Assembly (NCBI GenBank): GCA_947478865.1
Contig: CANJXF010000043.1
Coordinates: forward strand, 1 to 35,461
Reading direction: 5' to 3'
DNA: 35,461 bases
DNA from: Verrucomicrobiales bacterium
GTDB taxonomy: Bacteria; Verrucomicrobiota; Verrucomicrobiia; Limisphaerales; CANJXF01
Below the pieces are notes generated by a model, which saw only the letters and a list, made by a program, of their open reading frames with translations, ran no database searches and was not told where the DNA came from. Below are positions 18,926-33,723 of the stretch, one piece after another (the first letter of the stretch is position 1; each line of letters begins with the position of its first letter). The position numbers and the translations under genes were made by a program.

Positions 18926-19492
18926 CTAACCCAAGGTCAGGAAATTCTTCAGGATGATGCGGCCGCTGTCGGTCAGGATGCTTTCCGGATGGAATTGCAC
19001 GCCCCAGATCGGAAGGGTTTTGTGGCGCACGCCCATGATTTCGCCTTCCTCGGTTTCGGCGGTGATCTCCAGGCAGTCGGGCAACGTGTCGCGCTTGATG
19101 ACGAGAGAGTGGTATCGCGTCGCGGCAAACGGATTAGGCATGTCGCGGAATAAATCTTTGCCGTTGTGTTTAATCAACGAGGTTTTGCCGTGCATCATTC
19201 GGTAATTGACCACGACCTCCGCGCCGAAGGTGTGGCCGATGCATTGATGGCCTAGGCAAACGCCGAGCAACGGAAGTTCCGGCCCGAACGTGCGGATGAT
19301 TTCATTGGAGATGCCCGACTCACGCGGAGAACAAGGGCCGGGCGAAATCAAAATGCGCTCGGGTTTCAGCTCGCGAATTTTGTCGATGGAAATCTGGTCG
19401 TTGCGATGCACCTGCAAATCGACCTGCATCTCGCCGAGATACTGGACGATGTTGTAAGTGAAAGAATCGTAGTTATCGATGACCAGCAACAT
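18926..19492 (-). CDS. Anthranilate/aminodeoxychorismate synthase glutamine amidotransferase (TrpG/PabA)
   Basis: A class I glutamine amidotransferase of 188 aa that gives ammonia from glutamine to the chorismate-binding partner (TrpE or PabB). The chain opens [19 protein letters not shown], has SPGPCSP, the nucleophile Cys79 in GVCLGHQ, and the His-Glu pair in VQFHPESI near the C-terminus. Sequence alone cannot separate TrpG from PabA. No trpE or pabB lies nearby, so it may serve both. It is divergent from the ALDH-like gene (254 bp apart). TATCTG lies 7 nt before the ATG on the minus strand, a possible leaderless -10. Confidence 0.93.
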
Positions 19493-19746
19493 GGCGTTAC
19501 AGATAATTCACAAAGGCCGTTTAGGAAAGAGAAAGAGTCGGGGAGGGGAGTCGCGCGACGGGCGCGGCGGAGTTGCCGGTTGGGAAAAGGAAAGGAATCG
19601 CAACCGGAACTCCTGGGCGAAAGGAGCTGCCTTTTCCGCTCGGGGTTGTGATTTGTTATTTTCCTTCGCAGCCGCCGTGTCCATCGCGAGACATCCGTTC
19701 GAGTTCTCCGTTGCGAGCGCCTGGGCGAATTGATAGCGTCCAAACA
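19493..19746. other. Divergent intergenic region trpG/pabA - ALDH-like
   Basis: 254 bp with promoter candidates at both ends (minus TATCTG near 19500; plus 19711-19739, listed separately). The G-rich middle (about 19530-19640) shows no supported gene, tRNA or clear hairpin. Confidence 0.4.
19711..19739 (+). promoter_or_regulatory. Candidate leaderless promoter of the ALDH-like gene
   Basis: TTGCGA (19711-19716), a 17-nt spacer and TAGCGT (19734-19739), with the ATG 7 nt after the -10 box. Transcription would start at or next to the A of the ATG. The geometry matches the candidate at 33735-33762. Confidence 0.45.
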
Positions 19747-20616
19747 ATGAACCGGCTCGACGTCCGCAAAACCTACAAGCTCTATATCGGCGGGAATTTC
19801 GTGCGCAGCGAAAGCGGCCGGTCGCTTCCCGCGCTCGCCCCGGACGGCACGCAGCTCGACAATTATCCGAACGCTTCGCGCAAGGATTTTCGCGACGCCG
19901 TGAGTGCCGCGCGCCCGGCGTTCGACGGCTGGGCGAAAAAAACGGCGTATCTGCGCGGACAAATTTTGTATCGCGCCGCGGAGATGTTGCAGAACCGCTC
20001 CGCGGAACTGGCCAACGAGATCGCGCGCTCGACCGGCGTGAAAATGGCCAGGGCCAACGCGGAAGTCGCGGCGTCGATTGATCGGCTGGTGTATTACGCC
20101 GGTTGGACGGATAAATATTCGCAGATCTTCGGCTCGGTCAATCCGGTGGCGACAGCGCACTTCAACTTCACCACACCAGAGCCTGCCGGCGTCGTGGTCG
20201 TCCTCACCCCGGACGACCCCTCGCTGGTGGCGCTTGTTTCACTCATCGCGCCGGTCATTTTATCCGGCAACTCGGTCGTGGTGGTTCCGTCCGAAAAATT
20301 TCCGCTGCCGGCATTGACCTTCGCCGAGATTCTCGCGACGAGCGATTTGCCCGGCGGCGTGGTCAACGTCATCACCGGCCAGCGCGCGGAGCTTGTCCCG
20401 CACATCGCCAGCCACATGGATGTCAACGCGGTCGTGGACGGCACGGGCATTCCTGAAACGGGCGCGGCCTTGCAAGCCGGCGCGGCGATCAATTTAAAAC
20501 GCTATTCATCCCGCGCCCTCGCGCCAGCGGCATGGTTCACGGCGCCAGCGGAGGATCCCTACTGGATTCTCGACACGGTGGAATTCAAAACCGCGTGGCA
20601 TCCGATTGGCGTTTAA
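19747..20616 (+). CDS. Aldehyde dehydrogenase homologue lacking the catalytic domain
   Basis: The 289 aa follow the ALDH N-terminal half: KTYKLYIGGNFVRSESGRS, a helical region (LRGQILYRAAEMLQNRSAELANEI), then the Rossmann part with TPEPAGVVVVLTPDDPSLVAL, SGNSVVVVPSEKFPL and ATSDLPGGVVNVITG. After the segment that normally reads TGS...G..I...A..NLKR..LELGGK (here GTGIPETGAALQAGAAINLKRYSSRA) the catalytic domain with its Cys is absent. About 20 residues later the chain resumes with DTVEFKTAWHPIGV, which corresponds to the C-terminal oligomerisation strand of ALDHs. It is thus not simply cut short, and no catalytic-domain coding follows downstream. It cannot be a normal dehydrogenase; a partner or NAD-binding role is inferred. 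deoC follows after 72 bp. Confidence 0.82.
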   Translation: MNRLDVRKTYKLYIGGNFVRSESGRSLPALAPDGTQLDNYPNASRKDFRDAVSAARPAFDGWAKKTAYLRGQILYRAAEMLQNRSAELANEIARSTGVKMARANAEVAASIDRLVYYAGWTDKYSQIFGSVNPVATAHFNFTTPEPAGVVVVLTPDDPSLVALVSLIAPVILSGNSVVVVPSEKFPLPALTFAEILATSDLPGGVVNVITGQRAELVPHIASHMDVNAVVDGTGIPETGAALQAGAAINLKRYSSRALAPAAWFTAPAEDPYWILDTVEFKTAWHPIGV

Positions 20617-20688
20617 ATCCTGTTAACTCAACGGGCAATCCGCGCTGAATCCTGTCTATCCCGATTATTCCTGTTAAAAAATTGTTGA
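20617..20688. repeat. TCCTGT-rich short repeats between the ALDH-like gene and deoC
   Basis: The 72-bp gap holds three near-copies of (A/T)TCCTGT followed by TAA or CTA: just after the stop (about 20617), near 20649 and near 20668. I associate such strings with intergenic repeats in related genomes, but only these copies are visible. Confidence 0.3.
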
Positions 20689-21321
20689 ATGAATGCCTTG
20701 TCTCCAATCGAAATCGCCGCTCGCACAGAACTCGTCCTCGTCCGCCCCGACGCCACGCGAGCGGAAATTGAAGCGCTCTGTTTGCACGCGCGTGAAAATA
20801 ACTTTCGCGCCATTTGCGTGAACAGTTCGCGGGTCGCCCAGGCGTTCATGCTGCTCGAAGACAGCGACGTAAAAGTGATCAGCACGATTGGTTTTCCCAT
20901 TGGCGCGGCGGATTCGGATGTGAAGCGTTACGAAACCGAAGTGGCGATTGATTTTGGCGCGCAGGAATTCGAAGTCGTGCTCAATCTCGGCCATCTCAAA
21001 GACCGCGAAGAAGCGAACATGCTCCGCGAGCTGCGCGACATCGTGGACGCCGCTGAAGAACGGCCGGTCAGCATTCTTCTGGGAACAAAACTACTCGAAG
21101 AAGAGGAGCAGGTTTTCATTTGCAACCTCGCGCTCGAAGCCGGCGTGAAGCTTCTCAACGCCGGCAACGCCGACATCGAGACGATCAAATTCCTGCGCGA
21201 AACGCTCGGGAAAAAGTGCGGCATCAAAGTGACCGGGGAAATCGCTGATGCGGATGCCGCTCGCGAATTGATCGAAATCGGCGCGACGCATTTTACGATG
21301 CCGTTCATCGCGCAAGGTTAG
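20689..21321 (+). CDS. deoC: Deoxyribose-phosphate aldolase-like protein (divergent DERA)
   Basis: DERA cleaves 2-deoxyribose 5-phosphate to glyceraldehyde 3-phosphate and acetaldehyde through a Schiff base. The 210-aa barrel aligns throughout: VLVRPDATRAEIEALC, FRAICVNSSRVAQA, DVKVISTIGFPIGAADSDVKRYE. The Schiff-base Lys (K154) and the second catalytic Lys (K180 in IKVTGE) are kept. Three positions differ from textbook enzymes. The catalytic Asp of E.DMVIN is Glu95 (EFEVVLNLG). KTSTGF around the Schiff-base Lys reads KLLNAG. The C-terminal Ser pair that binds phosphate is missing in HFTMPFIAQG. The substrate may therefore not be deoxyribose phosphate. It follows the half-ALDH and precedes the polyketide synthase by 35 nt. 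Confidence 0.82.
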   Translation: MNALSPIEIAARTELVLVRPDATRAEIEALCLHARENNFRAICVNSSRVAQAFMLLEDSDVKVISTIGFPIGAADSDVKRYETEVAIDFGAQEFEVVLNLGHLKDREEANMLRELRDIVDAAEERPVSILLGTKLLEEEEQVFICNLALEAGVKLLNAGNADIETIKFLRETLGKKCGIKVTGEIADADAARELIEIGATHFTMPFIAQG

Positions 21322-21356
21322 ATGGCGAAAACGGAAATTAAGCTTACTATCTGATC

Positions 21357-22418
21357 ATGTATCTAAGGGGAATTGGAACCGCCGCGCCGCCGCGTTCCTA
21401 CGAACAAAGCCAATGCTGGAGCGCACTGCAGGAATCACCGCAGTTTAGCGGACTCACCTCCCGCTCCCGCGCCATCCTCCGGAAAGTTTTGCTGGCGAAA
21501 AATGGCATCGCCACGCGGCATCTCGCGCTGGATCCGTTGGCGGAATTCTTTGATTGCAGCCCCGATACGCTCAACGCGCGCTTCGCCCGCCACGCACCCG
21601 CGCTCGCCACCCAGGCCGCCGAACGCGCCCTCGCCGATGCCGGACTCCGCGCCGCAGACATCGACGCGGCATTAATCAGCACTTGCACCGGCTATTTGTG
21701 TCCCGGCCTGACGAGCTACGTGACGGAGAAACTCGGATTGCCGCAAAACGTTTTTGCCCTCGATCTGGTGGGGCAAGGTTGCGGGGCGGCGCTGCCGAAC
21801 CTGCGCGCCGCGGAAAATCTGGTTGCCTCCGGCCAGCATAAAAACGTGCTCAGCATCTGCGTCGAAGTGTGCAGCGCGGCGTTTTATTTGGACAACGACC
21901 CCGGCGTCCTGATCAGCGCCTGTCTTTTCGGCGATGGCGCGGGCGCGGTGATTCTTTCCGGTGAACCGGATGCGCGCCGCCGCCGGGTGCAGTGGAAAGC
22001 GTTTCATTCTGTAATTTCACCAGCCGAGCGCGACCTGCTGCGGTTCGAACAGAAGAACGGAATGCTGCGAAATATTTTGTCGCCGGAAGTCCCGAAGCTC
22101 GCGGGCAAATTTGCCGGAAGAGTGTTGGATGAACTGCTGCAATCAACCGGCGCAGACCGCGAGAAAATCTCCACCTGGATTCTGCATGCGGGCGGCCGCG
22201 ACGTCCTGCTCGCGCTGCAAAAAGATTTAAACCTGTCGCCCGCCGACCTCTGTTGGAGCGCGAACGTCCTGCGTGAATTCGGAAACCTGAGCAGCTCGTT
22301 CGTCCTGTTCGTGCTGGAAAAAGCGCTGCGCGAAAACGCCCCCGGCGGACTCTGGTGGATGGCGTCGTTTGGTGCGGGATTCAGTTCGCATGGCGCGTTG
22401 CTCGAAGTGGAAACCTGA
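21357..22418 (+). CDS. Type III polyketide synthase
   Basis: A chalcone/stilbene-synthase-like homodimeric enzyme that extends acyl-CoA starters with malonyl-CoA to make pyrones or resorcinols. The 353 aa hold the full triad: Cys142 in DLVGQGCGAALPNLR, His277 in WILHAGGRDVL and Asn310 in EFGNLSSSFVLF. The thiolase-fold segments ALISTCTGYLCPGLTSYV, SACLFGDGAGAVILSG and the C-terminal ASFGAGFSSHGALLE are intact. A TACTAT box lies 6 nt before the ATG, suggesting its own start, although no good -35 is visible. In many bacteria such genes sit beside a methyltransferase and an FAD oxidoreductase. Here the fitting methyltransferase is 2.6 kb away at 25016 and no oxidoreductase is present. The product is not predictable. 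Confidence 0.93.
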   Translation: MYLRGIGTAAPPRSYEQSQCWSALQESPQFSGLTSRSRAILRKVLLAKNGIATRHLALDPLAEFFDCSPDTLNARFARHAPALATQAAERALADAGLRAADIDAALISTCTGYLCPGLTSYVTEKLGLPQNVFALDLVGQGCGAALPNLRAAENLVASGQHKNVLSICVEVCSAAFYLDNDPGVLISACLFGDGAGAVILSGEPDARRRRVQWKAFHSVISPAERDLLRFEQKNGMLRNILSPEVPKLAGKFAGRVLDELLQSTGADREKISTWILHAGGRDVLLALQKDLNLSPADLCWSANVLREFGNLSSSFVLFVLEKALRENAPGGLWWMASFGAGFSSHGALLEVET

Positions 22419-22430
22419 GCGGGAGTGGCA

Positions 22431-22461
22431 AAAAAACGGCGATCCCAATAGGACCGCCGTT
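22431..22461 (-). terminator. Intrinsic terminator of the FN3 gene
   Basis: AAACGGCG pairs with CGCCGTTT (8 bp), extended by three pairs after one mismatch around the loop CAATA. Read on the minus strand it ends in a run of seven T. It lies 23 nt after the minus-strand stop at 22484 and just beyond the polyketide synthase stop. Confidence 0.8.
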
Positions 22462-22483
22462 TCAAGGATGACTGATCATTAAG

Positions 22484-23095
22484 TTACAGCGACATGTGGG
22501 AAACCGGATCGCTCCAATCACTGTAGCCGGTGCTGCCGCCGATGGCTCGCGCCTGCAAGGTATAGGTGGTTCCCGGCGTCAGGTCAGGGATGACCACCCG
22601 GGATTGAGTAAAAACCCCGACCGCCTGCCATTGACCGGTTACGTAACTCATGCGGATTTCATACGCCGCCGCCGTGGGCACCGGTTTCAAACGCAGGCCG
22701 AGCTGCGTGCTCATCGGGTTATCCACGCGCTCAACCACCGGTTTCGGCAATTGGATTTGCGTGCGGTTCGTGCTCGCCGCTTCGAATCCCGACGAGAGCA
22801 ACAGCGCCAAATCTTCGCCCGCGATGCTCTGCACGTAAGCCGCTTCCTGACGAAGCAAACCCAGCAACACTTCGCGGGCCGCATTCTTCGCCGCGACCAG
22901 TTGTTTGCCGCCCTGCGCCGCGGCGGTGATCGCCTCGGCAAACGCGTTTTGCGCAGCCGCCAGGACGGGGAGTGCAACGATGGGTGCCGTATATCCCGGA
23001 TTACCCGCCAGCTTAAAGCCGACGTTTGCCGAGAACGAGTTCAGTGGCGCATCCGTTAAACGGGTGAACCCCAGTGATATTCGATATGTACTCAT
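22484..23095 (-). CDS. Fibronectin type III domain protein
   Basis: 203 aa without a signal peptide. The N-terminal half is helical (PVLAAAQNAFAEAITAAAQGGKQLVAAKNAAREVLLGLLRQEAAYV), and LALLLSSGFEAAS follows. The C-terminal 85 residues form one FN3 domain: LRLKPVPTAAAYEIRMSYVTGQWQAVGVFTQSRVVIPDLTPGTTYTLQARAIGG, ending GYSDWSDPVSHMSL. I know this two-part layout as a family of about 200 aa in Bacteroidota and Verrucomicrobiota; its function is unknown. It runs against the flanking polyketide and methyltransferase genes and has its own terminator, so it looks like an independent insertion. A small open frame ends 17 nt upstream. No ribosome-binding site is seen. Confidence 0.8.
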   Translation of the reverse strand: MSTYRISLGFTRLTDAPLNSFSANVGFKLAGNPGYTAPIVALPVLAAAQNAFAEAITAAAQGGKQLVAAKNAAREVLLGLLRQEAAYVQSIAGEDLALLLSSGFEAASTNRTQIQLPKPVVERVDNPMSTQLGLRLKPVPTAAAYEIRMSYVTGQWQAVGVFTQSRVVIPDLTPGTTYTLQARAIGGSTGYSDWSDPVSHMSL

Positions 23096-23112
23096 ATGTT
23101 TTGTTGTGTTTG

Positions 23113-23358
23113 TTATTTGTTGGCGTGTAGGACCATCGACAGGGTGCGCTTCAGTTGCGACACCTGAAAAAGTTGTTCCCGCCGCTGCATCATTTTATTT
23201 CCGATGCAGTTTGTTCTCGGTGAGAAACAACCCCGCTGCACGATCACCCGACACAGGTATCCGCAATGTGCCCCCAGCAACGTGCTGGCGGAATCTATGC
23301 GTTTGAAGAAATCCCGGTAGGCCTTGCCCGCACCTAGCGTCTTTTCCCGAACCCGCAA
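23113..23358 (-). CDS. Possible small protein upstream of the FN3 gene
   Basis: An 81-codon frame ends 17 nt before the FN3 start on the same strand, too close for a separate promoter. The product is basic and has four Cys (GAHCGYLCRVIVQRGCFSPRTNCIG) and a helical, charged end (NKMMQRREQLFQVSQLKRTLSMVLHANK). I do not recognise it. Composition is not decisive and another minus-strand frame overlaps, so this is tentative. Confidence 0.3.
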   Translation of the reverse strand: MRVREKTLGAGKAYRDFFKRIDSASTLLGAHCGYLCRVIVQRGCFSPRTNCIGNKMMQRREQLFQVSQLKRTLSMVLHANK

Positions 23359-23643
23359 CGCCTATCGCATAACCCTTGCCAACCTCCTGGAACCTATCCG
23401 CGCCCACCCGCTCCCGATCGGATTTTTCTCTGGTTCCATTTCCGAGAAGAGGCTTTACATCCAAAAAAGCGAAGCATAAAATTCAGCGCTCATTTTGCGC
23501 TGAAATTAAACGGCTTCAAATGTCAAACCTTCATAGGTAAATCCGTTGGCATCCGCAGCCGAACCGTTCTATCCGATTCGCACCTGAGAAATGGACCAAT
23601 TTTTGGTGAAATTTCAAGAAGCGTTCCACGCTATTTCGAGTGC
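23359..23643. other. Region before the Ig/RCC1 remnant
   Basis: About 285 bp without a supported gene. The plus-strand frame of the downstream repeat protein is open from 23341 but shows no homology-like sequence until about 23650 and has no ATG, GTG or TTG codon there. An 8-bp hairpin TTCAGCGC / GCGCTGAA (23482-23504) with a 7-nt loop is the only structure seen. Confidence 0.4.
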
Positions 23644-23727
23644 TTAACGCCTTGGATTACCAGTCAACCTCAAAACCAATTTGGTCCGGCTGGCGCAACT
23701 GTCACTTTCAGCGTTGAGGCGATTGGT

Positions 23728-25008
23728 TTGGCCGGGATTCACTACGAATGGCAATTCAATGGAACAAATATTGCGGGAGCAACAAACTCCACCCTCGCGC
23801 TGTCGAGCGTTCAAGCAACCAATGAAGGCAGTTACCGGGTAGTTGTTTCCACTGGAGCGGGTTCGGTCACAAGTGCGGTTGCCACCTTCACACTGGTTCG
23901 CACGCCTCAAATCGTTTCTGTAACTCCTTCAGTGCCCGGTTTTATTTGGGTCACGAGCAGCACGAATTTGACGGTCGTCGTGACGGCGGCAGGAACAAAT
24001 CTTTACCCAATTCACTATCAGTGGAAACGGAATGGCACGGTGAATACGAATCAATTGTCTGCGGGTTATCCGTTAAATGCCGGTTTGCAAGCTAGTTCAT
24101 TGGACGGAGACTATTCCGTGATCGTCACCAACGCCGCTGGCTCGACTAATATCGGGACTTGGCAGGTTCAAGCATTTTATTCAGGCATGGTAGCTGCCTG
24201 GGATGCCGAGAGTCACGATCTTCTCAGCCGTCCATCTGAGTTGACCAACACGCTTTCGATTGCAACGGGGCCGATTCACTCTCTCGCAGTGAGTGAGGAA
24301 GGGACGGTGTCTGCGTGGGGTGGGAATTCGTCCGGCCAAACCAATGTGCCATCCGGTTTAACAAACGCCATCTCCGTGGCAGCGGGAACGAATCACAGCC
24401 TGGCTTTGCGCTCTGACGGAACGGTCGTTGCGTGGGGAAGGACTAATGAGAATCAGTGCGCGGTGCCATCGGGATTGAGCAATGTGCTGGCGATTGCGGC
24501 GGGAGGAAACCAGAGCTTGGCTTTGTTCAATAGCGGAACGGTTACAAATTGGGGTGCCACTGTCGGGGTTATTCCCGCCAACATGACGAATGTCACAGCC
24601 ATTGCCGCCGGAACGAATTTCTGCCTGGCCTTGCGCAGCAATGGAACCGTGGTGGGATGGGGTGACAACGGGGTGGGTCAAACCAACGTGCCGTTCTCTG
24701 CGAGCAATGTGGTGGCAATCGCGGCGGGAGATTCGCACGGATTGGCGCTGCGGAGCGATGGCCATGTGATTTCATGGGGCAGCGTGACAAATGTGCCGGT
24801 TGACTTGACCAATGTCATGGCGGTGGCGGCGGGTTCGGGTGTCAGCTTGGCGTTGAAAAATGGCGGGACGGTGATGACTTGGACCAATGCCGGGCAAACC
24901 AACATCCCGACTTTGACCAAGGTCATTTTTGAAATTGCTCACGAGATTCAGATTCGTGAAAATCGAGTTCCTCTCCTATCCAGCTTCATCTCTTTATGCG
25001 TATTCTAA
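23728..25008 (+). CDS. Ig-like/RCC1 repeat protein, truncated at both ends (probable gene remnant)
   Basis: The frame holds an Ig-like domain (up to about residue 65), a second Ig-like domain (about 70-150) and RCC1-type repeats of about 48 residues (about 155-400) such as HSLALRSDGTVVAWG and NVVAIAAGDSHGLALRSDG. The first start codon, TTG at 23728, lies inside the first Ig domain. Its opening strands (PWITSQPQ...GATVTFSVEA) are encoded upstream at 23653-23727 in the same frame, which has no start codon and no signal peptide. At the 3' end the repeats break off after GQTNIP, and unrelated residues follow to the stop. Intact members are long secreted proteins. I read this as an internal fragment, without internal stops, wedged between the polyketide synthase and its methyltransferase. 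Confidence 0.6.
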   Translation: MAGIHYEWQFNGTNIAGATNSTLALSSVQATNEGSYRVVVSTGAGSVTSAVATFTLVRTPQIVSVTPSVPGFIWVTSSTNLTVVVTAAGTNLYPIHYQWKRNGTVNTNQLSAGYPLNAGLQASSLDGDYSVIVTNAAGSTNIGTWQVQAFYSGMVAAWDAESHDLLSRPSELTNTLSIATGPIHSLAVSEEGTVSAWGGNSSGQTNVPSGLTNAISVAAGTNHSLALRSDGTVVAWGRTNENQCAVPSGLSNVLAIAAGGNQSLALFNSGTVTNWGATVGVIPANMTNVTAIAAGTNFCLALRSNGTVVGWGDNGVGQTNVPFSASNVVAIAAGDSHGLALRSDGHVISWGSVTNVPVDLTNVMAVAAGSGVSLALKNGGTVMTWTNAGQTNIPTLTKVIFEIAHEIQIRENRVPLLSSFISLCVF

Positions 25009-25015
25009 ATTTAAG

Positions 25016-25711
25016 ATGAAACGCGTTGTTGAACCCGAACTACTCGACGAACTTTCGCCGGACGATCCGCGCGCGCGGCGGTCGCGGCGGGACTTGCGCC
25101 GGGTCAACTTCTTCATGCGCAACGTCGAAATCGTCGAACGCAGGTTGCTCAAAGCATTTCCCGACGAACCTCCGCGACAGATCATGGAATTGGGCGCGGG
25201 CGATGGAACATTCATGCTCCAACTGGCCAGAAAGCTATCCCGGCAGTGGGGCAACGTGGAGATCGTGCTCGTCGATCGTTTGAAAACGATTTCCCTGGAA
25301 ACCGTGCGGGAACTCAATCAACTCGGTTGGCGCGTTGAGGTGGTTTGTGCGGACATTTTCGAGTGGCTCCCGAAATGCGAACGGGCCGATTGCGTGATGG
25401 CGAATTTGTTCCTGCACCACTTCGAAGTGGACGGACTCGCGCTGCTGCTCCGTCTGGCGGCAGCGAAATCAAACGTGTTTTTGGCCTGCGAACCGCGCCG
25501 GTCCACGCTGGCGCTGGCTGGAGCACGGTTGCTCGGGCTAATCGGTTGCAATGACGTAACCCGTAACGATGCGCTGGTGAGCGTGCGCGCGGGTTTTCGA
25601 GGAAGGGAACTCTCCGAGCTGTGGCCCACGGCAAATGTTCGCCGGTTGGACGAAACAAATGCGGGTTTGTTTGGCCACGGTTTCACGGCGACCTCATTTG
25701 CGGCGCGCTGA
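25016..25711 (+). CDS. Class I SAM-dependent methyltransferase (type III PKS-associated type)
   Basis: 231 aa with a Rossmann methyltransferase core: IMELGAGDGTFMLQLAR (motif I), VEIVLVDRL (motif II), VEVVCADIFEWLP and RADCVMANLFLHHFE (motif IV region). The N-terminus KRVVEPELLDELSPDDPRARRSRRDLRRVNFFMRN is the signature I know from methyltransferases encoded next to bacterial type III polyketide synthases, where they probably methylate the pyrone or resorcinol product. The link to the synthase at 21357-22418 is thus inferred from family and shared strand, although 2.6 kb of unrelated sequence lies between. The start at 25016 fits the family; the upstream extension to 24929 belongs to the repeat-protein remnant. 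Confidence 0.85.
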   Translation: MKRVVEPELLDELSPDDPRARRSRRDLRRVNFFMRNVEIVERRLLKAFPDEPPRQIMELGAGDGTFMLQLARKLSRQWGNVEIVLVDRLKTISLETVRELNQLGWRVEVVCADIFEWLPKCERADCVMANLFLHHFEVDGLALLLRLAAAKSNVFLACEPRRSTLALAGARLLGLIGCNDVTRNDALVSVRAGFRGRELSELWPTANVRRLDETNAGLFGHGFTATSFAAR

Positions 25712-25769
25712 CCCGTTTTCTCGCGACAAACTTCTTGGCGTTCTCTGTTTGTTGAGGGATTACTTTGCC

Positions 25770-26408
25770 ATGCTAGTTACTGATTTTATTCCAGCCGAAG
25801 AAAAGGGAAGTCGCCGCCTGATGGTTTTGCTGCATGGCCTGGGCGACAGCATGGAGGGTTATCGCTGGATGCCGGAGACGCTGCAATTGCCATGGATGAA
25901 TTACCTGCTGGTCAATGCGCCGGATGGTTATTACGGCGGATTTTCCTGGTACGACTTCGCCAGCAATCCTGCGCCCGGAATCAAGCGCAGTCGGGAACTG
26001 CTTTTCCAGATGCTCGACGGGTTGCGCGAGAAAGGCTTTCCCACGAGCGAGACGATTCTGTTCGGCTTTTCGCAAGGTTGCCTGATGACGTTGGAAGTGG
26101 GCCTGCGCTATCCGCATTTGTTCGCGGGATTGATCGGCGTGAGCGGTTACGCGCATGAGCCGGAGAGATTGTTGAAAGAATTGTCGCCGGTCGCAACGCA
26201 GCAGCGTTTTCTGATCACGCACGGCACAAAAGATCCAATGATTCCATTTGAAAAAGTCAAAGAGCAGGTGGAAGCTTTTCATGAGGCGGGATTACAAATT
26301 GATTGGCGCGAGTTTCAAAAGGCCCACACGATTGCGGGCGAGGAAGAGATCAGCGTGATTCGAGATTTCGTGGTGAATCGGTACGCCGGGACGAGCGAAA
26401 CGGATTGA
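25770..26408 (+). CDS. Phospholipase/carboxylesterase-family alpha/beta hydrolase
   Basis: 212 aa of the small esterase family (like YpfH and EstB). It has VLLHGLGDSMEGYRWMPE (oxyanion-hole region), the nucleophile Ser101 in LFGFSQGCLMTLE, Asp155 in HGTKDPMIPFE and His186 in KAHTIAGEE, a complete catalytic triad. No signal peptide is present, so it is cytoplasmic. The start at 25770 is preferred because the preceding in-frame codons overlap the methyltransferase gene. It follows that gene by 58 bp on the same strand; the natural ester substrate is unknown. Confidence 0.92.
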   Translation: MLVTDFIPAEEKGSRRLMVLLHGLGDSMEGYRWMPETLQLPWMNYLLVNAPDGYYGGFSWYDFASNPAPGIKRSRELLFQMLDGLREKGFPTSETILFGFSQGCLMTLEVGLRYPHLFAGLIGVSGYAHEPERLLKELSPVATQQRFLITHGTKDPMIPFEKVKEQVEAFHEAGLQIDWREFQKAHTIAGEEEISVIRDFVVNRYAGTSETD

Positions 26409-26473
26409 GCTGCGAATCAGTTTAATTGGGCATCCACAGTTTGATGGCCAGCCATTTTTCCGGGGAGTGAATT

Positions 26474-28180
26474 ATGAATTGGAAAATTCTGTTCGTTGTG
26501 ATCGGGTGCGGCTTTTCTGGGATCGAAATGGTTTCAGGCCAAACCATCCTAAATATTACTCCGGGGTTTGGCGCGCCTGGGGAACAAATTTTTATTCAAG
26601 GCTTCGGATTTGCCGGTTCGACCAATGTGAGGTTCACGTTGAACAAGAACGTGCCGGTGACGCCGCCTTCGGACCTTGCTTTCAATGTGGTCGTGCCCGC
26701 AGGAGCGACGACGGGTCCGCTCCAGATGGTGAAAAACGGGGTGGTCGGTCCAGCGAGCATGCAGAGTTTTATCGTGATCGGCCAGGAACCTTACATCACC
26801 GGTTTCGCCCCAAACTTTGGAGCGCCGGGCGCAGTGAATATTATCATCAGCGGAACCCACTTCACCGGCATAACCAATGTGAGCTTCAACGGAACACGCG
26901 TAACCGGATTTGGCGTCACTGCGGAGACGCAACTTCATGTGACCAATTTGCCGGCCGGAATCACGACGGGGCCGATCAGCCTCACTCGTTCAAATCTCAC
27001 CGGGACGAGCAGCAGCTATTTTTTTGTTGCGCCGAGTATCGCGAGTTTTTCCCCTTCCAGCGGCCGTGTCGGAAACGTTGTGGTGATAAAAGGCCAGAAT
27101 TTCACGGGCGCAACGGCGGTGACTTTTAACAGTGTGAACGCTCCCGGATTTGTGGTTAACAGCAACACGCAGATTACGGTCTCAGTGCCGACGAACGCCA
27201 CGACCGGCCGGATCGGGGTCACAACGCCAGCCGCGCAGGTGCTCTCCAGCAGCAACTTCGTGGTGTCGCCGACCATTTACAGTTTTTCACCTGCCTTTGG
27301 AAAACCGGGAACCAACGTCACAATTCTTGGAGCAAATCTGCTCGGCAACACGGCGGTCTCCTTCAACGGCGTGAATGCGGTCGTGGGTGGAGGCGGAACG
27401 AGTAATCAAATTACCGCTACGGTTCCCGCTGCTGCGACGAGCGGCCCGATAACCGTCACGACGACCAATGGCTCGTTTACGACGGTGAGCAATTTCTTTT
27501 TGCCGCCAGCGATTAGCTCTTTTACCCCGCTCTTTGGCAACGTCGGGACGTCGGTGAGTCTTCAAGGTTCAAACTTCACCTATGCCTCCGCCGTGAGCTT
27601 TAGTGGAATCGCGGCGAATTTCACGGTGGTGAACAACACGCGGATTACCGCAACAGTTCCGTCTGGGGCGACGACTGGACCTATTTCTGTGACCACGCCC
27701 GGTGGGAGCGCAAGTGCCGTGGCGGCTTTTTATTTGCCGCCGGTGATCAGCGGACTTAACCCTGCAAATGGATTCCCGCTGACCCAGGTTACTGTCTCGG
27801 GAACGAATTTCTTGCAGGCCACGGCTGTGAAATTCAACGGCGTCAGCGCCAGTTATTCCGTTTCCAATAACAACCGAATCGTGGCGACGGTTCCGGCCAC
27901 GGCCACAACCGGTGCCATTTCGGTCACGGCTCCCGGCGGGACAGGAACAAGCGGCACGTTTGTCGTGAATGTGGTGACCCTCACGATTGCGTGGCTCACA
28001 AATCGTGCAGTCCAAATTTCGTGGCCGACCAATGCGGTTGGTTTTGCGTTGCAGGGGAACACCAATCTTTCCACGACGAACTGGGCGGTTCTTACCAACG
28101 TGCCGGCAATCAGCAACGGAACAAACTATGTGACCAACTCGATTGCGAAGAGCCCGCATTTTTTTCGGCTGAGGAAATAA
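26474..28180 (+). CDS. Secreted IPT/TIG repeat protein
   Basis: 568 aa. A signal peptide (MNWKILFVVIGCGFSGIEMVSG) is followed by six IPT/TIG immunoglobulin-like repeats of about 78 residues, each opening I..F.P..G..G..V.I.G.NF and closing with ATTGPISVTT-type strands. The C-terminal 65 residues (ISWPTNAVGFALQGNTNL...SPHFFRLRK) form the terminal domain common in exported Verrucomicrobiota repeat proteins, which may act in sorting or surface attachment. A good Shine-Dalgarno site (GGGGAG) precedes the ATG by about 7 nt. Repeats 4-6 are the most alike, pointing to recent duplication. The binding partner is unknown. It is convergent with the DUF362 gene (25 bp between stops). Confidence 0.9.
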   Translation: MNWKILFVVIGCGFSGIEMVSGQTILNITPGFGAPGEQIFIQGFGFAGSTNVRFTLNKNVPVTPPSDLAFNVVVPAGATTGPLQMVKNGVVGPASMQSFIVIGQEPYITGFAPNFGAPGAVNIIISGTHFTGITNVSFNGTRVTGFGVTAETQLHVTNLPAGITTGPISLTRSNLTGTSSSYFFVAPSIASFSPSSGRVGNVVVIKGQNFTGATAVTFNSVNAPGFVVNSNTQITVSVPTNATTGRIGVTTPAAQVLSSSNFVVSPTIYSFSPAFGKPGTNVTILGANLLGNTAVSFNGVNAVVGGGGTSNQITATVPAAATSGPITVTTTNGSFTTVSNFFLPPAISSFTPLFGNVGTSVSLQGSNFTYASAVSFSGIAANFTVVNNTRITATVPSGATTGPISVTTPGGSASAVAAFYLPPVISGLNPANGFPLTQVTVSGTNFLQATAVKFNGVSASYSVSNNNRIVATVPATATTGAISVTAPGGTGTSGTFVVNVVTLTIAWLTNRAVQISWPTNAVGFALQGNTNLSTTNWAVLTNVPAISNGTNYVTNSIAKSPHFFRLRK

Positions 28181-28205
28181 AAGGGAGCAAGACCGACTGC
28201 GGAGA

Positions 28206-29237
28206 TTAAGGCGTGGTTTCGATCTGGATGCTTTTCAAATTGCTCACGCCGAGTTCGAGCAGGGACGCATTCTGGTAGATTTCCAAATTCGTTTTGCTGG
28301 GTGGAACTTTGGCAAGGAGACGTTGTTTGTTGAGCTCCTGAATCGCCAGGGAATCGAGCGCGATCGGGTCCTTGCTCAGCCAGATTTGATTCAGCGCCGC
28401 AGAGTAATGGAGCAGGCTGCGTTGCTCGCCTTGATATTGGCAAAGCAACGCGTCGGTGATGTTCAACACCACTTTGTCGCCCACGCTGGGCAGGGCGTAA
28501 ATCTCCGGCAGCGCGGTCGCCAGTCGCTCACCTTGTTCAAAACGTTGCGTGTTATCGACGCTGCCAAAACCGACGTTGCCGAGATTTCCGGTTGTGCCAG
28601 CCAGATTGTGATTGAGCAGGGGAACGATGCTGATGATTTTGGTGATCTCCTTTGAAACCAATTTCGTGACGAAGGATTTTCGTCCAAGACCCGGCCCTTT
28701 TTTCCCGAATTCCAGATCGCCCCAAACGAGATTGCCGATCAGCGGATTGTCGTAAAAATTGTTTTCGTCGAAGCCCGCCATCGAGGCCGATGCGATACGC
28801 ACGTGCAATCGTTCGGCCAATTCGCCATAACCGGCCAATCGCAGATGCGTCAATTCTTTGTCCCAGATGATGATTTTGTTGGTGGGAATTCCGGAAGCGA
28901 TCAGCCCCTCGACCACGGCCGCCACGACGCTCGGCCGGGTGCCGCTGTTGGCGCCGGGCTCGGAGTAAACTTTGATGCCGACCACGTCTTTGCTCGAAAC
29001 AAAGGTTCGCCAGGCGAGCGCGATGTTTGTTTTGCCGGTCAGCTGGAGCAATCCGCGGTTGACGAGTGCGCGAACTTTTTCCGGCTGAGGTTGGAACGCG
29101 ATGGTCGCATCGGGATCGGTCGCGACGACGACGCGCGCGGCCGGGCCGGGAGTTTCACGGGAAAAAAGAGTGGGCGCTGCGTGTGTCTGGAGCGACAGCA
29201 GCAAACCGGCAGTTAATAGAAAAAATCGTTTAAACAC
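28206..29237 (-). CDS. DUF362 domain-containing exported protein
   Basis: From the GTG at 29237 the protein has 343 aa and begins with a clean signal peptide (MFKRFFLLTAGLLLSLQTHA). An ATG at 29306 would add 23 residues in front of it and overlap the divergent gene, so the GTG is preferred. The DUF362 domain covers most of the chain: SSKDVVGIKVYSEPGANSGTRPSVVAAVVEGLI, KIIIWDKE, ITKIISIVPLLNHNLAGTTGNLGNVGFGS and the closing WLSKDPIALDSLAIQEL. The family function is unknown, and no ferredoxin-type Cys cluster is seen here. It is convergent with the TIG gene and divergent from the TPR lipoprotein gene. Confidence 0.88.
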   Translation of the reverse strand: MFKRFFLLTAGLLLSLQTHAAPTLFSRETPGPAARVVVATDPDATIAFQPQPEKVRALVNRGLLQLTGKTNIALAWRTFVSSKDVVGIKVYSEPGANSGTRPSVVAAVVEGLIASGIPTNKIIIWDKELTHLRLAGYGELAERLHVRIASASMAGFDENNFYDNPLIGNLVWGDLEFGKKGPGLGRKSFVTKLVSKEITKIISIVPLLNHNLAGTTGNLGNVGFGSVDNTQRFEQGERLATALPEIYALPSVGDKVVLNITDALLCQYQGEQRSLLHYSAALNQIWLSKDPIALDSLAIQELNKQRLLAKVPPSKTNLEIYQNASLLELGVSNLKSIQIETTP

Positions 29238-29256
29238 TGCGAAAACCGGGCGTTTC

Positions 29257-29285
29257 TTGACACTTCGGGCGGCGGATGTTACCAC
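29257..29285 (+). promoter_or_regulatory. Candidate promoter of the TPR lipoprotein gene
   Basis: A perfect TTGACA (29257-29262), a 17-nt spacer and a weak TACCAC (29280-29285); the ATG at 29294 is 8 nt further on, again a leaderless geometry. The -35 overlaps the 5' end of the divergent DUF362 leader. Confidence 0.45.
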
Positions 29286-29293
29286 CCTTTCCA

Positions 29294-31207
29294 ATGCTGA
29301 CCACAAAAAAGCGGACGCAAATTTTCGTCATTTTCCTTCTCAGTTTGCTGATGATTGGAGGGTGGACCGGATGTGCTCCGGCCGGCGCGCGCGCGTTGCT
29401 GAAGGGCGAGCGATTAATCAAGGAAGGCAAGTATGCTGAAGCGGTCAAAAGCTTTGAAGAAGTCACGGCAGCCCTGCCCGATAACGCCAAGGCGTGGAAC
29501 CATCTCGGGCTGGGTTATCAATATGCGGGCGATCCCAAAAAAGCCGCGCAGGCCTACCAGACGGCGCTCAAGCTGGACCGAAATTTTGCGGAAGCGCGGT
29601 ATAATTTGGGCTCGTTGTATCTGGATCAGAATAATTTGGCCGCTGCGATCACCGATTTGACCACTTACACTCAATTCAACCCGAAGAATCCCGACGGTTG
29701 GCTTAAACTTGGCCTTGCGCAAAAACGGCTCGGCATGGCGAGCGCCGGCGCGGAGAAAATCCGCCAACTGGATTTCGCGAAAAAGAATCTTGAGGCTGCG
29801 CAAAAAATTCAGCCATCGGCGGAGGCGTTGAATGCAATCGGGGTAATTCAAATCCAGCGTGGCCATGCGCGCGATGCGATTCCCTACTTTACGACCGCGT
29901 TGCAGTTGCAACCGAATTTTTCCGACGCGCTGCTCAATCTGGCCGTGGTCTATCATCAATATGTCAATGATCGCAGGCTGGCATTGCTAAATTACCGGCA
30001 ATTTCTCGCCGTCGCAAAACAAGCTCCGGAAGCGGCTCAGGTCCAATTGATCGTGCGCCAATTGGAAAGCGAATTGAATCCCCCGGCGGCTCGCCCTCCC
30101 GTGACTCCAACTCCCGTGCCGGTTGTCTCCAAGCCCGCAACGGCGGTCGCGTCGAATGTTCCTGCGGTGGTGGCGTCAGTGCCCCCGCCGAAAACGGAGA
30201 CGAATCTCCCCAAGCCGGCGGTTGTCGCGAAACCGCCGGTCGCGGTCGTTGCTTCGCCGAAAGCGCAGACCCAGCTTGCTCCGCAGCATGTGCCCCAGGT
30301 CCAGCCGCTGCCGCCGCCGGTTGCGCTTCCAAAAAAAGAGGTTCCGGTGGAAGTAACACGGTTGCCTGATCCTGTGCCGATCAAATCAGCCCAGGAAATT
30401 CAGGGATTGAATATCGTTAAACCGGTGATCGCAATTTCCTCCAATAACACCGCGGCAGCCGCTCCAGCCAATTCCGTGCGCCAAACCACCGCACCCCAAA
30501 AAAATCCTAGTGTGGTTGCGCGGCTGAATCCGGTTACCTGGTTCAAACGCAAACCAAAAGCCATTACGCCGATGACGGAATCGCCGGTCAAAACCGCGTC
30601 CAAGAATGTTGCCGAAATTTCCGATCCCCTGCCCAGGACTGAAGTTCAGACGCAGCCCGATCCTCCCGAAGCGGCACCGAGCAAACCCGTGGTTTTACGC
30701 TACAAATATCGTTCGCCGGGTCGGCCTGCGGAAGGGAAGCGTGCGGATGCCGAACCGTTGTTTGCGCGGGGATTACAGTCCCAACGCGATCGCCGGTTGT
30801 CCGATGCTCTGGAAGCCTATCGCCAGGCGATCAAGGCGGACCCGACTTATTTCGAAGCGAGCTACAATCTGGCCGTAGTGTCGCGCGATTCGGGCGACCT
30901 GGGTGCGGCTCTGGTCGCTTACGAACATGCCTTGGCGGTCATGCCGGAATCGCTGAACGCACGGTTCAATTTCGCCTTCACCTTGCAGGAATCCGGCTAT
31001 TTTCAGGATGCGGCCAATGAACTGCAAACGTGTCTCGCGAAGAATCCAAATGAGACACGAGCACACCTGTTATTGGGCAATCTCTACTCCCAACGGCTCT
31101 CTCAAGTCGCCAAAGCGCGAGAACATTACCAGAAAGTGCTGGATGCGGAACCCCGCCACCCACAAGCGACGCAGATCCGATATTGGCTGGCCGCTCATGG
31201 TCCTTAA
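29294..31207 (+). CDS. TPR-repeat lipoprotein
   Basis: The 637 aa start MLTTKKRTQIFVIFLLSLLMIGGWTGCAPAG, a signal with a lipobox-like WTGC. Cys lipidation would anchor it in a membrane outside the cytoplasm. Residues about 35-230 hold at least five TPR units (AKAWNHLGLGYQYAGDPKKAAQAYQTALKLD and others). A long Pro/Ala/Val/Lys-rich linker (about 250-480) is probably disordered. Three further TPRs (about 495-630) follow, for example DALEAYRQAIKADPTYFEASYNLAVVSRDSGD. TPRs mediate protein-protein contacts; a partner cannot be named. An in-frame ATG at 29276 would add six residues before the signal. It is followed after 62 bp by cvpA and dnaG on the same strand. Confidence 0.88.
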   Translation: MLTTKKRTQIFVIFLLSLLMIGGWTGCAPAGARALLKGERLIKEGKYAEAVKSFEEVTAALPDNAKAWNHLGLGYQYAGDPKKAAQAYQTALKLDRNFAEARYNLGSLYLDQNNLAAAITDLTTYTQFNPKNPDGWLKLGLAQKRLGMASAGAEKIRQLDFAKKNLEAAQKIQPSAEALNAIGVIQIQRGHARDAIPYFTTALQLQPNFSDALLNLAVVYHQYVNDRRLALLNYRQFLAVAKQAPEAAQVQLIVRQLESELNPPAARPPVTPTPVPVVSKPATAVASNVPAVVASVPPPKTETNLPKPAVVAKPPVAVVASPKAQTQLAPQHVPQVQPLPPPVALPKKEVPVEVTRLPDPVPIKSAQEIQGLNIVKPVIAISSNNTAAAAPANSVRQTTAPQKNPSVVARLNPVTWFKRKPKAITPMTESPVKTASKNVAEISDPLPRTEVQTQPDPPEAAPSKPVVLRYKYRSPGRPAEGKRADAEPLFARGLQSQRDRRLSDALEAYRQAIKADPTYFEASYNLAVVSRDSGDLGAALVAYEHALAVMPESLNARFNFAFTLQESGYFQDAANELQTCLAKNPNETRAHLLLGNLYSQRLSQVAKAREHYQKVLDAEPRHPQATQIRYWLAAHGP

Positions 31208-31905: not shown

Positions 31906-33723
31906 ATGGCCGGGTTTATTTCTCCAACCACACTCGAACAAGTCCGCGCGGCCAGCGACATTGTTGAGGTGATTGGCGGCTACATCCCGCTAAAACGTAA
32001 CGGCGCGAACTTCACCGCGCTTTGCCCCTTTCACAAAGAGAAAAGCCCCAGTTTCAACGTCAACGCCCACAAGCAGATTTTCTACTGCTTCGGTTGCCAT
32101 AAGGGCGGCGATGTTTTCAGCTTCGTCAAGGATTACGAAAACATCGGGTTCGCCGATGCCGTCCGCCGCCTCGCCGATCGCGCACATATCGTGCTCGAAA
32201 CGGAGAATAATCCCGTCGAACAACAGGTTCGTCACATCAAGGATTCTCTCCTGCAAATCCACGAGCAGATCACGCAACGCTGGCAGGCTGCGCTCGCCAA
32301 CGATGCCGCCGGGCAGATCGCGCGCGATTATCTCGCCAAGCGAGGCGTTTCAGAGGAAGCGATTAAACTGTTTCGCCTTGGCTACGCCCCCGATGCGTGG
32401 GACGACACCGTCAACTGGGCCAAGAGCAAAGGCCACGAGTTTTCCACGGTGGAGCAGGGGGGATTGATCATTCGCAAAGAAGGAGCGGATCGTTACTACG
32501 ACCGGTTTCGCGGGCGACTTATTTTTCCGATTTGTGATGAGCAAGGGCGGGTCATCGGCTTCAGCGGACGCATTTTGAGCGGCGACGAAAAGACCGCAAA
32601 ATACGTCAACTCGCCCGAGACGCCGATCTTCACCAAGGGTAAAGTTTTCTTCGGACTCGATAAATCCAAGCGCCCGCTGCTCGACGCGCATTCCGCCATC
32701 GTTTGCGAGGGACAACTCGATCTCATTGCCTGTTACATGGCGGGCGTTCAAAATGTCGTTGCGCCGCAAGGAACCGCTTTGACCAACGATCATGCGCGGA
32801 TTCTTAAACGCTACGTCGATGAAGTGGTACTCTGCTTCGATTCCGATAACGCGGGTCAGAATGCCGCCGTCCGTTCGCTCGACAGCCTGCTCGCATCCGG
32901 TTTGGCCGTGCGCGTTGCCACCGTTCCCGCGCCACACGATCCCGATAGTTACATCAAGGAGTTTGGCGGCGCGGCGTTCCGCGATCTCACCGACAAAGCG
33001 GAAGGTTTTTTCGATTATTACCTCAACCGTTTGTGCGCCACCAACGAAGTTGCCACTGACAAAGGACGCGTCGCCATCCTGCAAAGCATGGCGGAAGCAG
33101 TTCGCAAAACCGGCAACGCCGTTCTGCTCGATAAATACGCGCAGAAAACCGCGATGCGCCTCGGCGTCGCGGCGGATTCAGTTCGCAGCGAATTCAAAAA
33201 ACAGCCGCGCGCCTCTTTGCAAAACGCCGCGGATGATGATTTCCAGCCCGAGGAAGAACCGCCCTCCACGCCGGCATCCATCCAGGAGCTCACGCTTGTC
33301 ACGTTGCTGCTGCAAAACGAAGAAAATGTTCTCTGGGCGCAGACGGTTTTGGACATCGAATGGATTGTTCATCCCTGCGTTCGCGAAATCATTTCGCGCC
33401 GCTTCGAGCTGCAGAGTTCCGGTGAATGGTTGGGCCCCGCCGCATTCCTGAGCCAATTGGAAAATCCTCTCGCGAGAAATTTGGTCACGCAGGCGCTCGC
33501 CGAGGAGCGCCCGATTGTCGATCCGGAAAAGGTTTTGAAAGGCCATTTGGCCAGGCAGGGTGTCGTCGAGTTTCTCCGCGACAAATTCATCGACCGTCAA
33601 ATGGCTGGGTTGAACCAGCAGATGACCAATCCCGACCTTCAGGAAGCCGAGCAAATCGCACTCTGGAAAAACAAGCAGCAGTTCATGGAATTGAAAAAGC
33701 AGCAGCTCGGACGTTTGCAATAA
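31906..33723 (+). CDS. dnaG: DNA primase
   Basis: DnaG makes RNA primers for replication. The 605 aa include the CHC2 zinc ribbon (Cys40, His43, Cys61, Cys64 in CPFH...CFGC), the primase core with GYAPDAWDD and RFRGRLIFPICDEQGRVIGFSGR, and the Toprim domain with AIVCEGQLDLIACYMAG and the metal-binding VVLCFDSDNAGQNAA. A C-terminal helical DnaB-binding region runs to the end. Length and order are standard. It follows cvpA by 3 nt rather than the familiar rpsU-dnaG-rpoD arrangement. Confidence 0.97.
   Translation: MAGFISPTTLEQVRAASDIVEVIGGYIPLKRNGANFTALCPFHKEKSPSFNVNAHKQIFYCFGCHKGGDVFSFVKDYENIGFADAVRRLADRAHIVLETENNPVEQQVRHIKDSLLQIHEQITQRWQAALANDAAGQIARDYLAKRGVSEEAIKLFRLGYAPDAWDDTVNWAKSKGHEFSTVEQGGLIIRKEGADRYYDRFRGRLIFPICDEQGRVIGFSGRILSGDEKTAKYVNSPETPIFTKGKVFFGLDKSKRPLLDAHSAIVCEGQLDLIACYMAGVQNVVAPQGTALTNDHARILKRYVDEVVLCFDSDNAGQNAAVRSLDSLLASGLAVRVATVPAPHDPDSYIKEFGGAAFRDLTDKAEGFFDYYLNRLCATNEVATDKGRVAILQSMAEAVRKTGNAVLLDKYAQKTAMRLGVAADSVRSEFKKQPRASLQNAADDDFQPEEEPPSTPASIQELTLVTLLLQNEENVLWAQTVLDIEWIVHPCVREIISRRFELQSSGEWLGPAAFLSQLENPLARNLVTQALAEERPIVDPEKVLKGHLARQGVVEFLRDKFIDRQMAGLNQQMTNPDLQEAEQIALWKNKQQFMELKKQQLGRLQ

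Follow-up and report, generated by a model that had tools for sequence, protein, structure and literature searches.

A type III polyketide synthase triad in a Verrucomicrobiota genome, probably split by a chromosomal exchange and an insertion

In the SrsA and FtpA alkylresorcinol-to-quinone pathways, a core made by a type III polyketide synthase (PKS) is reportedly oxidised to a quinone in a subsequent step. A PKS, a methyltransferase (MT) and an oxidoreductase, the three gene classes considered here, also occur together in hierridin clusters, one variant of which has them in the same order in the part of the source consulted (PMC8086630), and the PKSs of planctomycete triads, according to the excerpt available, make pentadecyl- and heptadecylresorcinols when tested (PMC10896814). 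A literature search on type III PKSs in Verrucomicrobia returned no title on a PKS-MT-FAD operon among the matches listed, where FAD stands for a flavin adenine dinucleotide-dependent oxidoreductase. Here we describe this triad in a Verrucomicrobiales bacterium of the Limisphaerales (GCA_947478865.1), starting from a stretch of 35,461 nt (the window) that is the entire contig CANJXF010000043.1 (C43) of a draft genome of 4.4 Mb in 114 contigs, with a completeness of 97.3% and a contamination estimate of 2.1%. All three orthologs are present in the genome, and they are not contiguous on one strand: PKS and MT lie 2600 bp apart, and FAD is elsewhere. Probably, a three-gene operon that other members of the order almost invariably keep contiguous has been split here by an exchange and an insertion.

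The normal arrangement was established by an order-wide census of PKS, MT and FAD in 293 genomes. PKS rows were kept down to E 1.4e-41 and all weaker rows were excluded, as were the PKS fragments G016:C189 and two of G030:C268, one of which falls just below that E range (G, C, L and f numbers denote genomes, contigs, loci and families). The relatives with names matched by PKS are mostly metagenome genomes of the Limisphaerales or Verrucomicrobia subdivision 3. Gene counts in the neighbourhoods of relatives were taken by tblastn and not from a longest-ORF tally, since antisense open reading frames (ORFs) covered MT or FAD in some loci, and gaps were measured from match ends, so that the partial MT matches of G234, G264 and G268 (start residues 71-82) inflate them. 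PKS was found in 116 genomes, MT in 114, FAD in 111 and all three in 106, the order being PKS-MT-FAD. PKS and MT share one contig and strand in 110 of the 112 genomes having both, and among loci of named genomes MT lies directly behind PKS in 29/30 (the exception is L027). In 105 of the 107 genomes with MT and FAD, the latter directly follows at a distance of no more than 408 bp, both genes being on one contig and strand; this does not apply to the window's genome or to G110, where FAD is 422 bp from the contig start. In G138, PKS and MT are near the ends of short contigs. We assign MT and FAD to the PKS because of this order-wide co-occurrence and adjacency.

Compared with this norm, the window stands apart. 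The initial annotation had placed PKS and MT on the same strand, 2.6 kb apart, with a minus-strand FN3 gene and an Ig/RCC1 fragment between them, and the ORFs bear out this layout. It had suggested that adjacency of the pair in related genomes would speak for an insertion; the PKS-MT gap is -1 to 401 bp in 109 other genomes, only the window deviates among the same-contig pairs, and the 2.6 kb between its two genes are peculiar to its genome. Neither the spacing nor the intervening genes are conserved across the order, and the MT is linked to type III PKSs. The proposal of an insertion or rearrangement into an operon is thus supported for the space between PKS and MT, and a distinct exchange behind MT is probably to be added. 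The claim that the FAD is missing did not hold beyond the locus itself, since an ortholog lies between ppk and nusB on contig C9.

With an operon FAD as query, one strong match was obtained in the window genome (C9:39961-40971). Conversely, the C9 gene matched operon FADs over the order at up to 63% identity and was the only hit at E ≤ 1e-25 in its own genome; trees place it with the FADs of six triad loci (FastTree support 0.96; SH-aLRT 91). The genes on C9 run ppk-FAD-nusB-PHP-ftsY on one strand. The ppk stop and the FAD start overlap by one base (TAATG; L094 8981), which suggests translational coupling in the new context.

Behind the window's MT is an alpha/beta hydrolase gene. DNA matches to an MT-hydrolase query were found in 243/320 genomes, the window's included, with the listed matches mainly on the hydrolase part. 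Among 55 genomes whose hydrolase neighbourhoods were compared, nine, from four families, have ppk directly 5' of the hydrolase and in the same orientation (G005, G044, G099, G069, G139, G014, G106 and G127 by script, G120 by reading); 44/55 lack this adjacency, and in two the flank is too short. The window's run hydrolase-TIG-DUF362-TPR-dnaG has counterparts in G099, G103, G007 and G074. On the other side, FAD lies upstream of nusB-PHP-ftsY in G127 (PKS-MT-FAD-histidine kinase-nusB) and in G032 (MT-FAD-nusB); no nusB was seen near FAD in the other 83 of 85 FAD loci examined, 71 of which have at least 1500 bp downstream. We found no ppk in front of nusB in any of 29 relatives, within a flank of up to 1.5 kb. 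G127 holds both of the arrangements expected before an exchange, PKS-MT-FAD-histidine kinase-nusB-PHP-ftsY (L156) and ppk-hydrolase (L225), and each of the four broken ends can be placed, correctly oriented. We infer that these neighbourhoods were exchanged reciprocally in a single step, for which one chromosomal inversion would be the simplest account: the chromosome would have broken between MT and FAD as well as between ppk and hydrolase, yielding MT-hydrolase-TIG-DUF362-dnaG on the window contig and ppk-FAD-nusB-PHP-ftsY on C9. One exchange would explain both new junctions, because ancestral MT-FAD and ppk-hydrolase neighbours become MT-hydrolase and ppk-FAD. In a separate event, whose place in the order of events is likewise conjectural, the space between PKS and MT would have received an FN3 unit of a dispersed type and a piece of an Ig/RCC1 gene.

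Several observations weigh against this reconstruction. The ppk-hydrolase adjacency is a minority state (9/55), and FAD is upstream of nusB in only 2/85 FAD loci, with a histidine kinase between the two in G127 and a 600 bp gap in G032. G005, whose PKS is the sister of the window's, has ppk-hydrolase together with an intact triad and no nusB nearby in the available stretch. No flanking direct or inverted repeats were found at the ends of the insert beyond chance-like short matches, and a search for a sigma-70-like promoter for the separated MT gave 1 site in 6 kb against 2.5 expected by chance. The genome is the sole member of its family in the sample compared, and therefore neither an empty site nor an exact breakpoint is demonstrable; the assembly, moreover, is a draft. 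We also considered that FAD moved or was acquired alone into an existing ppk-nusB gap and that MT came alone to the hydrolase, with no single exchange. The slot upstream of nusB is indeed variable among relatives, and in the trees the window FAD falls within a group of FADs from families f7/f34/f37, the window PKS pairing with G005. However, the ppk-nusB adjacency that such a move presupposes was seen in none of the 29 relatives, ppk-hydrolase and triad-nusB both exist and coexist in G127, PKS and MT are linked still, and a grouping of the window FAD with the G005 FAD was not rejected (p-AU 0.118), leaving separate moves unlikely. A horizontal replacement of FAD is unsupported by the same constraint test.

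The insert itself has two parts. The FN3 unit starts no more than about 15 bp from the PKS stop codon and carries its own terminator-like hairpin, which the C71 relic has kept too. The genome has two full-length FN3 copies (window and C34) and three partial ones (C50, C71 and C29), and the family occurs in 10/58 genomes; it is patchy, multi-copy and partly decayed. Only the last ~48 FN3 codons recur as isolated relics in C50 (94% DNA identity) and G024 (77%) with a nearly identical end base (window 22486-22628; L095 7251-7393; L161), and that the two genomes agree in this end may point to a discrete unit. The second part had been called a fragment in the initial annotation, rightly: similarity to Ig/RCC1 paralogs, 52 related stretches of which are present in the genome (the window's own included), starts 72 bp upstream of the sole start codon (TTG) and ends inside an RCC1 repeat, 89 bp before the MT start. 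An Rfam search of 19000-28200 gave no match, Pfam gave none for the small ORFs on the minus strand of the spacer at 23.1-23.5 kb, no FN3 relatives were confirmed in viral contigs, and a comparison of FN3 with PHROGs yielded only weak tail-fibre FN3 matches. A mobile element at the insert ends was rejected given the lack of flanking repeats and of Rfam or viral-contig support.

Could C43 and C9 instead be misjoined or misbinned, the real genome having an intact triad? The number of contigs and the contamination estimate would allow for this, and contig ends are close to some of the FN3 relics (C71:141, C29:192). On the other hand, PKS and MT still share a contig in the ancestral order and orientation, and the C9 junction is gene-precise and internal to a contig of 98.6 kb. 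The FN3 unit has no closer DNA copy than one with 143 bp in common at 94%, so there is no long repeat to cause a misjoin, and two independent misjoins would need chance reciprocity. We consider an artefact very unlikely.

The split genes are all full length. The PKS scores above the Pfam cut-offs for both the N and C domains of the chalcone/stilbene synthase fold, and the solved structures closest to it are those of the alkylpyrone-type synthases Pks18 and Pks11 (E about 1e-32). C142, H277 and N310, which we take to be the catalytic Cys-His-Asn residues, occur in at least 97% of the 51 sequences in the alignment and match up with the C, H and N of Pks18. Assignment as DpgA (3,5-dihydroxyphenylacetyl-CoA synthase) was rejected, the closest NCBIfam model (NF042429) giving 173.9 bits against a cut-off of 425. 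The MT has the N-terminal signature noted at the outset, a block around PELLDxLPPDDPRAxxSRRDLRRxN common to eight aligned members, and G60/G62/D63 are conserved, as is GGGLAGL in FAD; the MT tree was too weak for use (FastTree supports of 0.32 and 0.67 around the window). Median identities in the window genome versus the comparison set are 64.1 versus 63.5 for PKS, 50.2 versus 48.2 for MT and 56.9 versus 55.1 for FAD. Because the key residues are conserved and the identities normal, the pathway probably works still, the three enzymes probably making one product from separate transcription units. By analogy with described systems, the pathway would yield a small aromatic lipid: the PKS would probably form an alkylresorcinol or alkylpyrone-type core, which is then methylated and oxidised in a flavin-dependent step. 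If instead PKS and MT no longer formed one pathway, with the locus decaying and the MT co-opted, the lost linkage and the hairpin and opposing gene between them would be as expected; the intact genes with ordinary identities, and the finding that genomes without all three of PKS, MT and FAD nearly always lack every one of them, make this improbable.

Further triads in the order depart from the norm. G032 (L114, L115) has a second real split, between PKS and MT, with PKS on C10 and MT-FAD on C45, both contig-internal; its MT match carries one in-frame TGA. G169 (L123) has PKS and FAD with no MT in between, and upstream of MT-FAD in G176 (L120) a short remnant is all that is left of PKS. The FAD-like gene behind MT is divergent in G099 and G069 (27%) and very divergent (26-33% identity) in L100, L102 and L124, and also in L012 and L018 with another query, which suggests replacement of the oxidoreductase in some lineages.

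The features of the window are listed in Table 1. On the left flank, an aldehyde dehydrogenase-like gene also lies near PKS in L003, L122 and L123, and deoC lies upstream of PKS in L003, L112, L239, L242 and L247, so that this side of the locus is old. The half-length dehydrogenase gene is conserved and not broken, because 290-aa homologs adjoin PKS in L122 and L123.

Table 1. Features of the window around the split triad (positions are those of the 35,461 nt stretch).
Feature	Position	Strand	Basis
Half-length aldehyde dehydrogenase-like gene, 290 aa (left flank)	19744..20616	+	Matches only positions 2-233 of the Pfam Aldedh profile (461 in all)
deoC, deoxyribose-phosphate aldolase (left flank)	20689..21321	+	TIGR00126, 146 bits vs cut-off 117
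Type III PKS, triad gene 1, 353 aa	21357..22418	+	Pfam PF08392, PF00195, PF02797
Terminator-like hairpin and T run (minus-strand reading), end of FN3 unit	22434..22462	.	Inverted repeat I11
FN3-domain gene, putatively inserted, 203 aa	22484..23095	-	ORF; weak FN3 domain, E 2.7e-4
Ig/RCC1 gene fragment, putatively inserted, both ends truncated	23656..24927	+	Extent of paralog similarity; ORF 23728-25008
S-adenosylmethionine-dependent MT (PRK06202-like), triad gene 2	25016..25711	+	ATG at 25016 within ORF ending 25711
Putative MT-hydrolase rearrangement junction	25712..25769	.	Relatives: FAD after MT; ppk before hydrolase in 9/55 genomes
Alpha/beta hydrolase	25770..26408	+	PF02230; directly 3' of ppk, not MT, in several relatives
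TIG-domain protein, hydrolase block	26474..28180	+	PF20144; TIG-like ORF behind hydrolase in G099 (L179)
DUF362 protein, hydrolase block	28206..29306	-	PF04015; near hydrolase in L179, L185, L186, L227
dnaG primase, end of conserved hydrolase block	31906..33723	+	TIGR01391, 445 bits; block also in L185, L186, L227

A cluster-based search of this genome would report an isolated PKS and overlook the other two genes of the pathway, of which FAD sits on a different contig, and such a naturally scattered triad is a useful test of whether the pathway needs linkage. It is an unlikely, though conceivable, idea that the break-up was adaptive rewiring and not drift, in which FAD was drawn into a housekeeping operon, ppk-FAD-nusB, and became translationally coupled there; if so, the last polyketide-quinone step would be tied to polyphosphate or growth-state control, with PKS running with the aldehyde dehydrogenase gene and deoC.

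The enzymes are of a known kind and their chemistry is ordinary; the arrangement is a rare variant and an unusual operon break-up that is well resolved. The cyanobacterial hierridin cluster hidABC, as the consulted part of PMC8086630 describes it, likewise combines a methyltransferase, an oxidoreductase and a type III PKS, the likeness being one of gene class, but in the window genome the genes are dispersed. The likeness to the triads of Planctomycetota is again by gene class, with the order there, in the excerpt of PMC10896814, being MT-oxidoreductase-PKS in contrast to PKS-MT-FAD here. The SrsA and FtpA pathways resemble the present triad by description in that a PKS core is formed and then oxidised. 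Split operons in which the genes of a pathway lie apart are known, for example among the trp operons (PMC2395257, as far as the part consulted goes); unlike those, the present locus is one where both partners of the putative exchange that split the operon can be named, and this from distant relatives alone.
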